This document shows, in pieces, positions 43,695 to 46,905 of a stretch of 64,000 nucleotides of DNA. The notes under the pieces were generated by a model that was not told where the DNA came from, did no database searches, and saw only the letters and a program-made list of their open reading frames with translations. The stretch covers positions 2,102,223 through 2,166,222 of the forward strand of contig CP012155.1 in the NCBI GenBank assembly GCA_001602415.1. The letters run 5' to 3'. The number at the start of each line of letters is the position of its first letter. The stretch's first letter is position 1. A program made the position numbers and the translations under genes. Source of the DNA: Bacteroidetes bacterium UKL13-3 (GTDB lineage Bacteria; Bacteroidota; Bacteroidia; UKL13-3).

Positions 43695-44270
43695 ATGACT
43701 GAAGTAAAAGAATTTCTTGAAGTATACGCAGAGCAAACGCCCAATCCGGAGACAATGAAATTTGTTTTCAATAGAATGATTTTGCCTGATGATAGTGCAG
43801 ATTTCCCCACTCGTGAAAGCGCAGCGCCATCACCTTTAGCTAAAAACCTGTATGAATTCAATTTTGTAAATGGTGTTTTTATCATGAATAACTTTGTAAC
43901 CGTTACGCGCTCAGAAGGTGCAGCATGGGACGAGATTATTCCCATCATGCGCGAGTTCTTAAAATCATATGTGGAAGCAAAAGAACCTATTCTCCTAAAA
44001 TCTAAAAAAACAGTTATAGGGGATTACGGAGCGGATAATGTAACCGTTGCTAAAATTATTGATGTATTGGATACGTATGTAAAACCTGCCGTTGAAGTAG
44101 ATGGAGGCATGATATCTTTCAAATCATACGAAAATGGTGTTGTTACAGTTGAAATGAAAGGTTCCTGCAGCGGATGCCCTTCGTCAACCGTTACCTTAAA
44201 ACGTGGTATAGAAGGAATGTTGCAACGTATGGTTCCAGAGGTAAGAGAAGTAATTGCCGAGGCATTGTAA
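43695..44270 (+). CDS. nfu: Nfu-type iron-sulfur cluster carrier
   Basis: 191 residues: N-terminal scaffold domain (VYAEQTPNPETMKFVFNR) and C-terminal NifU-like domain with KPAVEVDGGMISF and the cluster-binding Cys pair in GSCSGCPSSTVTL. Nfu carries assembled [4Fe-4S] clusters to target enzymes in the cytoplasm. The mixed N-domain plus C-domain form is common in Bacteroidota and mitochondria. Its terminator has been split by the IS1182-family element. Confidence 0.93.
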   Translation: MTEVKEFLEVYAEQTPNPETMKFVFNRMILPDDSADFPTRESAAPSPLAKNLYEFNFVNGVFIMNNFVTVTRSEGAAWDEIIPIMREFLKSYVEAKEPILLKSKKTVIGDYGADNVTVAKIIDVLDTYVKPAVEVDGGMISFKSYENGVVTVEMKGSCSGCPSSTVTLKRGIEGMLQRMVPEVREVIAEAL

Positions 44271-44315
44271 GTTCAACATCAGTAATCCTATAATTAAAAA
44301 GGCTGTTCAATATTC

Positions 44316-46055
44316 GAGGCCACTGAAAAAGCATCATTTTGATGAAAACTTAATTTAGAGCGATTAGGTAAAATGTAAATTTTACTTAATCGCTTTTTTG
44401 TAATTTTACTTTTGAGATTTACAGGATGTTTTATGGTTCTTGTTGCACCCTAAAATGCATTTTTAGACCTTTTTTCGCGTAACTTTAGAGTTTACTCTGT
44501 TAATTTAATAATTCTTTTTAAGTTGACTGCAAAAATTGCCAGTGCACCCTGCATTTGCATATTACTAATGCCATAGGATATTGCTCTATCGTATCCGTGT
44601 ATGTTTTTTAACTCACTATTTTTTGCTTCAATTTTATAACGATGCTTTGATTTTTCTTTATAATAATCGGTTTCTTGAAAGACTGTTTGTTCTTGATGTA
44701 GGTCTGATTTAATTGTTAACGAATAGGTTTTTGTTTTTGCTCCTTCTTTATAACAACCCTCTTTTAAAGGGCATGTTTTACATTTGTCTGTATCAAAGTA
44801 GTATGTTACTGCTTGGTTTTTTCCAATATTTTTTGTGCCTTGACGAGCCTTTTTTAATGCCATATGACCAGCAGGGCAAACAAACATATCTGCATCTTTA
44901 TTGTAATCAAATTTATCTTCATCCTTTCTTGTGCCTTGTGTGATTGAGGGATTTAGCCTTGCTACTATTTTAATATTTTGCTCTGTTGTAATTTTAAGAT
45001 TTTCTTTTCCTGAATAGGCGGTATCGCCTATTATGGTATCCACATCAATTCCATTTTCTTGACTCATTTGTAAAAGTTTTGTTAACTCTGGCCCATCTCC
45101 TTTTTCACCCGATGTTACTACTGCTGCTGTAATAATGCGCTCTTCGGTCATGGCTATATGTGTTTTGTATCCAAAGAATGAGCTATCAGCTGATTTGTGC
45201 CCAATTCTTGCATCAGTATCTTTTGATAGGATGAAATTTTCTTGCGTATCTTCTACCGTTTCTTTTAGTAAATTGAGTTTTTCTTTTACACCAGGTATTG
45301 AACTAATAGTTGGTTCATTTTCTATTCGTTGCTCTAACTCTTTGCAATATGCTAACTCCTTTTCCAAATCATTATCAATGTTCTTTTGTGGCATATTTTC
45401 TTTCCATTACTCATCAAACAAATACACCGCTTTCCTGAGTAACTTAGAGCGTTCACGTAATACTTCTATTGCTGAAAATGGATTTGATCTTGATAGCATA
45501 TGTGTGGCATCTACTATAATTGACTTTGAACGAATGATGCCTTTTTCAACTGCTATACTGACTGTTTTGTTTATTAATAAATCTAACAAGTCGGTGTCTT
45601 TTAAACGTAGTTTCCTAAACTTGGTCAATGAACTAGAATTTATTACTTCCTCTTCTGGTGTCATTTCTAAAAAGTATTTAAATGACATATCGTATCGTGA
45701 ACGCTCAACTACATCAACATCAGATATTGTATAAATTGTTTTCAAAAGTAAATACTTGAACATGCGAACTGGACTTTCCGCCATTCGGCCATTATTCATG
45801 CAATATTTATTTACTAGCTCCTCGTATACAAAGGAAAAGTCTACTAATTCATTAACTTTTCTAAGCAAATTGTGCTTCGGAACAATTAAATCTTATAACG
45901 AAGAATGGTTACTAATCTGAATTTTATGCTGTTGTAATAACATTTGGCTGCCGTTAAATTTCTTAATAAAGAAACAAAAAAAGGGGCAAAAAACATTGCC
46001 GTTTTTTACCCCTTTTACTAACATTTGTTAATCAAATGACTTTTTCAGTGGCCTC
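44316..46055 (-). mobile_element. IS1182-family insertion sequence with 7-bp target duplication
   Basis: 16-bp perfect inverted ends GAGGCCACTGAAAAAG (44316-44331) and its complement (46040-46055). Direct repeat AATATTC flanks both sides (44309-44315, 46056-46062). Each end carries an internal hairpin: AGCGATTA-G-GTAAAAT with its partner (44359-44394, followed by T6) and AAAAGGGG with CCCCTTTT around 45979-46017. These probably shield the transposase from outside transcription and restore termination for the neighbours. Confidence 0.92.
44492..45868 (-). pseudogene. IS1182-family transposase with one in-frame stop and no ATG
   Basis: The two open parts, 45868-45407 and 45394-44492, are in the same frame and separated only by TAA at 45407-45409 within LFDE-stop-WKEN. 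Together they give about 458 codons with the N domain (LLRKVNELVDFSFVYEELV), first Asp (IIVDATHML), DTAYSGKENL, the Cys-rich insert (CPAGHM, CKTCPLKEGC) and the Glu region KNSELKNIHGYDR. At the 5' end the family sequence IVPKHN continues upstream of 45868 to a TAA, without an ATG. So the copy carries at least a nonsense codon and a damaged start, although both element ends are perfect. Confidence 0.85.
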
Positions 46056-46080
46056 AATATTCTGAGCAGCCTTTTTAGTT

Positions 46081-46905
46081 TTATTTGTGAAGCACCAACA
46101 ATGGTATTTTGGTATGATATGCCATTTGTTTACTCAAACTACGGTGAAACAACCTATCAAAGAAACTTCTGCTATGTTTGGCCATCACCAACATATCAAC
46201 TTGATGTTCTGCAATAAACTTCTCTATAGCCTCTGTAACTTCCGTATTTGCCTTGTTTACTACCGTTATGTTTTCATGCTTAATGTGTTTTTTGTTGCGT
46301 GCAAAAAAGTTATTTTCAGAATCAAAATACTTATCAAATTCTGTTGAAATATGCAACACGGTAACTTTTGAATCGAACAGTTCAGCAAAAAACATCAAAC
46401 GAGAAACAGCAGGAAATTCTGGCTCGTTATAATCGCTTGAATACAAAATATGCTTAGGCTCGGTGTATGAATAAGCTGGAGGAATAACCAGCACCGGAAT
46501 TTCACTTTTACCAATAACAGAGGCGCTGTTGCTTCCAACCAAAATTTCTTGCAAACCGCTTGCTCCGGTTGTACCCATCACAATTAAATCAATGTTATTG
46601 CTTTTACTAAACGAAATAACTTCATCATTCACAAAACCTGTGGCAGTATGCAACTCAAAAGTAATTCCCGAAGATTTGAGGTAAGCTGTTTCTAACTTTT
46701 CAAACCCTACTTTTGTAGCTTCTTCCATTTCTTGCAAAATAAGTTGATAGGTTTCTGCAGGAAAAGAAGCGTCCATTACAGGAATGCTTTTAATGTGAAA
46801 TAAGTGAAGTTTGGATTCTGTTTTCTTGCAAAGCTCAATTGCATAACGCAACGCATTATTGGCAACTTCAGAAAAATCGGTAGGTAATAATATATTGTTT
46901 ATCAT
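46081..46905 (-). CDS. tandem universal stress protein
   Basis: 274 residues, two UspA domains. Domain 1 (to ~145) starts NNILLPTDFSEVANNALRY and has the ATP-loop MGTTGASGLQEILVGSNSASVIG (shortened: GTTGAS...GSNSASV). Domain 2 is less conserved and ends HRSLSKQMAYHTKIPLLVL. Cytoplasmic, role in stress survival inferred from family. Its terminator is the one split by the IS. Confidence 0.85.
   Translation of the reverse strand: MINNILLPTDFSEVANNALRYAIELCKKTESKLHLFHIKSIPVMDASFPAETYQLILQEMEEATKVGFEKLETAYLKSSGITFELHTATGFVNDEVISFSKSNNIDLIVMGTTGASGLQEILVGSNSASVIGKSEIPVLVIPPAYSYTEPKHILYSSDYNEPEFPAVSRLMFFAELFDSKVTVLHISTEFDKYFDSENNFFARNKKHIKHENITVVNKANTEVTEAIEKFIAEHQVDMLVMAKHSRSFFDRLFHRSLSKQMAYHTKIPLLVLHK

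Follow-up and report, generated by a model that had tools for sequence, protein, structure and literature searches.

The window analysed here is a stretch of 64,000 nucleotides from contig CP012155.1 of Bacteroidetes bacterium UKL13-3. Within it, an insertion sequence lies between the convergent genes nfu and usp, with one half of a hairpin on either side. The locus raises the question of whether such an element finds a terminator by its folded shape, by its base composition or not at all, and of what the insertion means for the neighbouring genes. The features concerned are as follows, in window coordinates.

43695–44270, + strand: nfu, upstream gene of the convergent pair (Nfu_N and NifU domains; ORF and domain match)
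44296–44308, no strand: target hairpin, left half, made up of A-run 44296–44300 and left stem arm (sequence, folding)
44309–44315, no strand: left copy of the target site duplication, AATATTC, comprising the hairpin loop and one further base
44316–46055, − strand (that of the transposase): IS1182-family insertion sequence, 1740 bp (sequence and repeat search)
44316–44331, + strand: left terminal inverted repeat, GAGGCCACTGAAAAAG (perfect, 16/16 bp)
44357–44399, + strand: subterminal terminator-like hairpin and T-run, facing transcripts from the nfu side (folding)
44492–45394, − strand: transposase frame, C-terminal part (DDE_Tnp_1_6, DDE_Tnp_1; ORF and domain match)
45407–45868, − strand: transposase frame, N-terminal part (DUF772; ORF and domain match)
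45972–46016, − strand: subterminal terminator-like hairpin and T-run, facing transcripts from the usp side (folding)
46040–46055, − strand: right terminal inverted repeat, exact complement of GAGGCCACTGAAAAAG (repeat search)
46056–46062, no strand: target site duplication AATATTC, right copy (direct repeat)
46063–46076, no strand: target hairpin, right half, made up of right stem arm and T-run 46072–46076 (sequence, folding)
46081–46905, − strand: usp (two Usp stretches; universal stress protein), opposite convergent gene (ORF and domain match)

When the flanks are rejoined with a single copy of the duplication, the resulting 34-nt empty site folds into a 14-pair stem with one T-G wobble and a 6-nt loop, ATATTC. 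The fold has an energy of −18.8 kcal/mol; for 1000 mononucleotide shuffles of this site, the mean is −3.1 (sd 1.9) and the best value −11.8 kcal/mol. Chance pairing at the window site is ruled out by these shuffles and by the recurrence of the pattern at other insertions. The stem halves, AAAAAGGCTG at 44296–44305 and CAGCCTTTTT at 46067–46076, lie outside the duplication according to the repeat search and flank the element, as a preliminary description of this DNA had proposed. That description also equated the duplication with the hairpin loop; given the fold of the rejoined site, the duplication is indeed at the loop but takes in one base of the closing pair as well. Similarly, the span of 44296–46076 that it assigned to the element includes the target stem halves, the element itself ending at 44316 and 46055.

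Being inverted repeats that adjoin the ends, the stem halves might be taken for longer inverted repeats of the element rather than for part of its target. However, the duplicated centre intervenes between them and the ends, and their sequence varies by copy while the element stays constant. The four full-length copies of the window genome contradict this reading, and we discount it almost entirely.

That genome (3.24 Mb, one contig) carries, besides the four full copies, a 128-bp end fragment of the element. The transposase frame of the window copy is split by one in-frame TAA, and those of the other three full-length copies are open. The product of one open copy (L003) scores 363.7 bits against the IS1182 model NF033551 (cut-off 270, E 1.6e-108), which confirms the family assignment made earlier, and the DDE transposase domain is matched above cut-off by PF13751 and PF01609. 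Members of the IS1182 family are single elements of about 1.5–1.9 kb with terminal inverted repeats, a layout matched by the 1740 bp and the 16/16 bp repeats of the window element. The clade to which it belongs shares 17–20% identity with 12 representatives drawn from other IS1182-family clades and branches separately from them in a tree in which long branches are flagged. No name for the clade was found among 40 of 1205 plasmid matches listed, seven of which are at 60–80% identity and the others below 60%. A sister copy in the window genome (L002) has a 9-bp duplication within another hairpin. An empty site for the window insertion was looked for in one congener, and no direct one was found: in the 1.5 kb examined 3′ of nfu, the congener has a different hairpin with T's, followed by a tRNA-Leu on the opposite strand and an unrelated-looking 257-aa ORF. 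Given this different downstream content, its nfu locus is not comparable with the window site.

Insertions of the same clade were collected from one scan of genome contigs (54 loci), from searches of related genomes and from fetched regions. A pair of ends entered the collection when it matched GAGGNNACTGAAAAA, one mismatch being allowed, and either showed a duplication of 5 bp or more or was of full-length or MITE-like size; the outer flanks were not used in the selection, except for a minimum length and the removal of exact repeats. After four tandem or nested artefact pairs had been dropped, 111 end pairs left 107 two-ended insertions, MITEs included, from about 32 genomes of Flavobacterium, other Bacteroidota and two Bacillus; searching around one genome (G093) added nothing to the collection. 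Only 6 of the 5671 site pairs have similar flanks (at most 20/60 mismatches). An exact duplication of 7–9 bp is present in 83 of the 107 insertions, from 23 genomes (64 of 8 bp, 17 of 9 and 2 of 7), and 7 of the other 24 have a duplication with at most 2/8 mismatches. Nineteen of the 107 are MITEs shorter than 230 bp, 14 with an exact duplication and 5 without.

The NK2020 chromosome holds 25 full-length copies at 99–100% identity, plus partial copies. At two of its loci (L041 and L014), tandem copies have a single duplication unit between them, and other DNA interrupts some copies. In two other genomes, the insertions L098 (G103) and L122 (G461) have similar terminator arms (AAAAAAGGCTAAGA) and different duplicated centres; from these sequences, one orthologous terminator may have been hit twice independently.

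Once the 83 insertions are aligned on the duplication, A occupies positions −12 to −9 in 89–95% of them and T positions +9 to +12 in 90–96%. The register A4-N8-TSD-N8-T4 thus holds an exact position, to the base, relative to the duplication. At least three of four A's and T's on both sides are found in 75/83 insertions (NK2020 23/28, G470 10/11, the rest 42/44), against 1.9% of 389,040 background positions in NK2020 and 0.9% of 399,040 in G470. The rule is missed by eight of the 83, a clear miss being L058 from Bacillus, and it fits 22/24 insertions that have no exact duplication, if a length of 8 bp is assumed for these. A fixed A-to-T distance regardless of duplication length is unsupported, since the totals, measured crudely between run edges, vary between 18 and 26. 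In the window genome, L003 and L004 have no duplication, and every one of their flank halves fits the A/T rule, with left and right halves that are mismatched; the sequences suggest recombination between copies.

The arms between the runs and the duplication pair in excess. Their mean best pairing is 5.99/8, versus 3.78 (sd 0.11) for permuted partners, which retain the A/T motif (z 20, 83 insertions). At least six of eight arm positions are paired in 56/83 insertions (NK2020 10/28, G470 9/11, the rest 37/44), and in 13 of the 24 that lack an exact duplication. Insertion into a hairpin bounded by an A-run and a T-run, with stem halves on both sides, thus recurs as the preliminary description anticipated. 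In the remaining 27/83, a good stem is absent. A/T runs are present in 22 of these 27, and their mean G+C content is 64% at −6 to −2 and 57% at +2 to +6, with 34% and 42% for two background genomes.

In the structure-guided alternative, the transposase recognises a hairpin or cruciform once extruded and attaches the element ends 5′ of each of the two loops, so that the loop is duplicated. This follows pathway c in the 2017 model of IS1272, where such joining is drawn as an alternative (PMC5678879, as consulted in part). It draws support from the 56 hairpins and their z of 20, from the centring of the duplication on the dyad, and from the hairpin targeting reported, in the parts consulted, for IS1272 of the same family (PMC5678879, PMC4923244). 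The 27 sites without a good stem speak against it, as most of them keep the A/T register and, on average, the G+C blocks. So does their location: among stemless sites with long flanks, 11 of 26 are inside an ORF of 120 codons or more, compared with 3 of 37 stem sites (Fisher p 0.002). This context was scored for the 63/83 sites that have 600 nt or more on each side (20/83 have flanks that are too short), an ORF here being a stop-free stretch and not an annotated gene; L019 and L098 were scored as inside an ORF although the likely start is 73–78 nt away. In the genomes other than NK2020, this difference does not reach significance (2/28 for stem versus 1/8 for stemless sites, p 0.54), and 18 of the 27 stemless sites come from NK2020, 10 of those 18 within long ORFs.

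This concentration in NK2020 bears on a further possibility, namely that the element inserts anywhere and selection retains the insertions in harmless terminators. The NK2020 copies are probably young, given that 25 full-length matches are 99–100% identical, and their many stemless insertions, so often in long ORFs, are what such a process might leave. Nevertheless, stemless insertions, those in ORFs included, tend to obey the base-fixed A/T register. Since a register in stemless sites cannot come from selection on gene function, we reject selection alone and consider insertion without target choice highly improbable. Terminator enrichment is, even so, also produced by purifying selection.

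To weigh composition against pairing, a position model was built from the stemless sites only, without pairing as an input, and used to scan NK2020 (390 kb) and G470 (400 kb), overlapping positions being counted separately as background hits. Among its intergenic hits with a score of at least 12, hairpins are found in 61% (n=28, NK2020) and 59% (n=32, G470), and among its hits in ORFs in 7.5% (n=40, NK2020) and 14% (n=7, G470). Intergenic insertions in NK2020 have stems in 8/16 cases versus about 7 expected from the score bins, with stemless sites scored when left out; hence composition is enough for this genome. For genus g53, stems are found in 15/18 intergenic insertions versus about 10 expected (summed score bins). 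In this comparison, 10 of 29 g53 sites are left out because their context is unknown, the top background bins hold 4 sites each, and the second L023 insertion is given the context of the first, whereby one NK2020 row is listed as ORF. Much of the hairpin association is thus predicted by a model that was trained on stemless sites, and it accounts for the stem fraction of NK2020, contrary to the structure-guided reading. The leftover g53 excess favours that reading; according to the model, it may reflect a real hairpin preference on top of composition, or selection.

Given that stemless sites retain the A/T runs, some of them in ORFs, we conclude that insertion is probably guided by sequence geometry and not by hairpin shape alone, and recognition of the extruded structure appears unlikely to us. 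To judge by the sequences, arm pairing is not required for insertion, although it may help. Copies at sites without inverted repeats, which the preliminary description had named as the observation that would speak against its structure-guided target choice, thus do occur, in long ORFs among other places. The earlier reading was right on terminators and over-stated on structure.

The stem sites lie close to gene ends. An ORF 3′ end is no more than 120 nt away from 33/37 stem sites (on both sides of 15) and from 11/26 stemless sites. One such place was followed through relatives. Pyruvate kinase (PF00224, PF02887) is found in 93/93 genomes of the genus, and among 30 loci read at the 3′ end of its gene, one has the element, flanked by AAAAAAAAGGCCTTCCG and the complement of that sequence. 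In 28 of the 29 element-free relatives, a hairpin with T's (−8 kcal/mol or below) lies within 90 nt of the stop codon; the one relative of the 29 read with no such hairpin behind the gene is L314. As the hairpin sequences differ among species, this locus shows the kind of place that is entered, not one identical empty site.

Terminator-like hairpins are also present within the element, near its ends. In the window, the hairpins proper occupy 44357–44396 (+) and 46016–45979 (−), with T's after each and z values of −7.4 and −4.7 versus shuffles, in agreement with the hairpin and T-run near each end that had been noted before. In 18 chosen elements, an inward terminator-like hairpin of −10 kcal/mol or below is found at 35/36 ends, compared with 5% of 540 shuffles (made from the same 18 elements, inward reading only) and with 6% among 300 genome windows chosen at random. 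For 37 full-length elements with distinct ends, the inward count is 73/74, the exception being one end of L058, and hairpins score outward at 43 of the same 74 ends, a count without shuffle control. Many end hairpins being bidirectional, inward facing is a tendency and not a strict feature. Their sequences vary among subgroups, and the arrangement is constant.

These hairpins could serve the element only, by blocking read-in to its transposase gene, with no benefit to the neighbours. The inward score at nearly every end is in line with this, and so are known barriers such as a stem-loop of IS200, which terminates impinging transcripts (PMC3196728, as consulted in part); we hold the case for this reading to be evenly balanced. 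Since an inward barrier also ends the neighbour's transcript, effects on the element and on its neighbours can both hold. The sequence data fit an element that would substitute for the lost terminator and so spare its neighbours.

The nineteen MITEs (152–212 bp) have the same ends and mostly follow the same target rule; their loci are L131, L134, L138, L142, L148, L153, L154, L157, L158, L162–L166, L168, L173, L175 and L192. Of 13 distinct MITEs, 10 have an inward hairpin at one end and none at both, and 12 have an outward one. With hairpins facing both ways in most of them, MITEs may be portable terminators.

Taken together, we find it likely that a distinct IS1182-clade DDE element targets terminator-like DNA of two-fold symmetry, makes a cut that duplicates the loop, and carries end hairpins able to stop read-in. 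The transposase would read, in duplex DNA, an A-tract, about 8 bp rich in G+C, an A+T-rich centre of 8 (7–9) bp, again about 8 bp rich in G+C, and a T-tract. An 8-bp staggered cut centred on the dyad would then duplicate the centre, which in a terminator is the loop, and leave the stem halves on either side; pairing of the arms could help and would not be needed. Because bidirectional intrinsic terminators closely match the target composition, most insertions would lie between genes or just behind them. The end hairpins could stop transcripts arriving from either neighbour, would thereby also keep read-in transcription out of the transposase gene, and in many cases could act outward. Against this account stand the g53 stem excess over the model, the eight register misses, the enrichment of terminators by purifying selection, the outward-scoring ends and the failure to find a direct empty site of the window insertion in the congener examined. 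We propose more tentatively, and with slightly less than even confidence, that terminators serve the element as safe harbours read by duplex composition and not by folded shape, and that a broken one is repaid by a terminator of the element's own at each end. If this is true, hairpin targeting elsewhere in the family may likewise be composition reading.

The closest published parallels are IS1272 and TnSha1, IS1182-family elements of staphylococci whose targets are inverted repeats, often transcription terminators; in the parts consulted, they are reported to delete the hairpin wholly or partly, without target duplication or sequence consensus (PMC5678879, PMC4923244). Three IS1272 copies are reported there at targets other than inverted repeats (PMC5678879), and a review cited in both papers has some IS1182 members targeting palindromes. 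The likeness to our clade lies in the family name and, for the 56/83 sites with a stem but not for the other 27, in inverted repeats as targets. Unlike IS1272 as so described, the elements studied here duplicate a centre of 7–9 bp, keep the stem halves and follow a strict register; the insertions do not follow the IS1272 type of hairpin deletion without duplication, since 83/107 have exact duplications and 56 of these both arms retained, with 24/107 lacking an exact one. Pathway c of the 2017 model draws loop duplication without an example in the parts consulted, whereas here it is seen in many insertions, and the hairpin extrusion that it includes is not demanded by the present data. Among the literature matches listed, in which subscription journals are mostly uncovered, neither the A/T register nor loop-duplicating insertion into terminators appears by title or abstract opening.

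Insertion into extragenic palindromes is shared with ISPpu9, ISPpu10, ISRm22 and others, which insert in REP sequences (PMC1525189, as consulted in part). Their target is one repeated palindrome family, whereas here composition and spacing are common to the sites and the sequence is not. The rule described here supplies a base-by-base target description for a family that the parts consulted present as hairpin-targeting without sequence consensus (PMC5678879, PMC4923244), and at least two outcomes within one family, a duplicated centre and a deleted hairpin, can now be compared. It suggests a way for a transposon to insert often while leaving genes intact and sending no run-on transcripts into its neighbours. 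The rule would also let free target sites be predicted, possibly as a tool for tagging gene 3′ ends. Group IIC introns insert in or behind intrinsic terminators as well, and resemble the present clade in this association; they differ in being retroelements with RNA-based target recognition.

Other IS1182-family elements occur in the same genomes. The window genome contains a second, distant one in two copies (L281 and L282, G000:C1:78112-79485 and 2598489-2599862). At 19% identity, this element has TAACGT and ACGTTnnGC as flanks and a 4-bp duplication, ACGT, between them; the flank to the right of L281 looks like a dispersed repeat, with 7 genome matches at no more than 3 mismatches, itself included. 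G103, which also has the loop-duplicating clade, carries six copies of a third IS1182 clade (L283–L288), with a 571-aa frame, no visible duplication and a T-run a few bases past the right end, the ends being approximate. By analogy, these six look like the hairpin-replacing outcome of IS1272.
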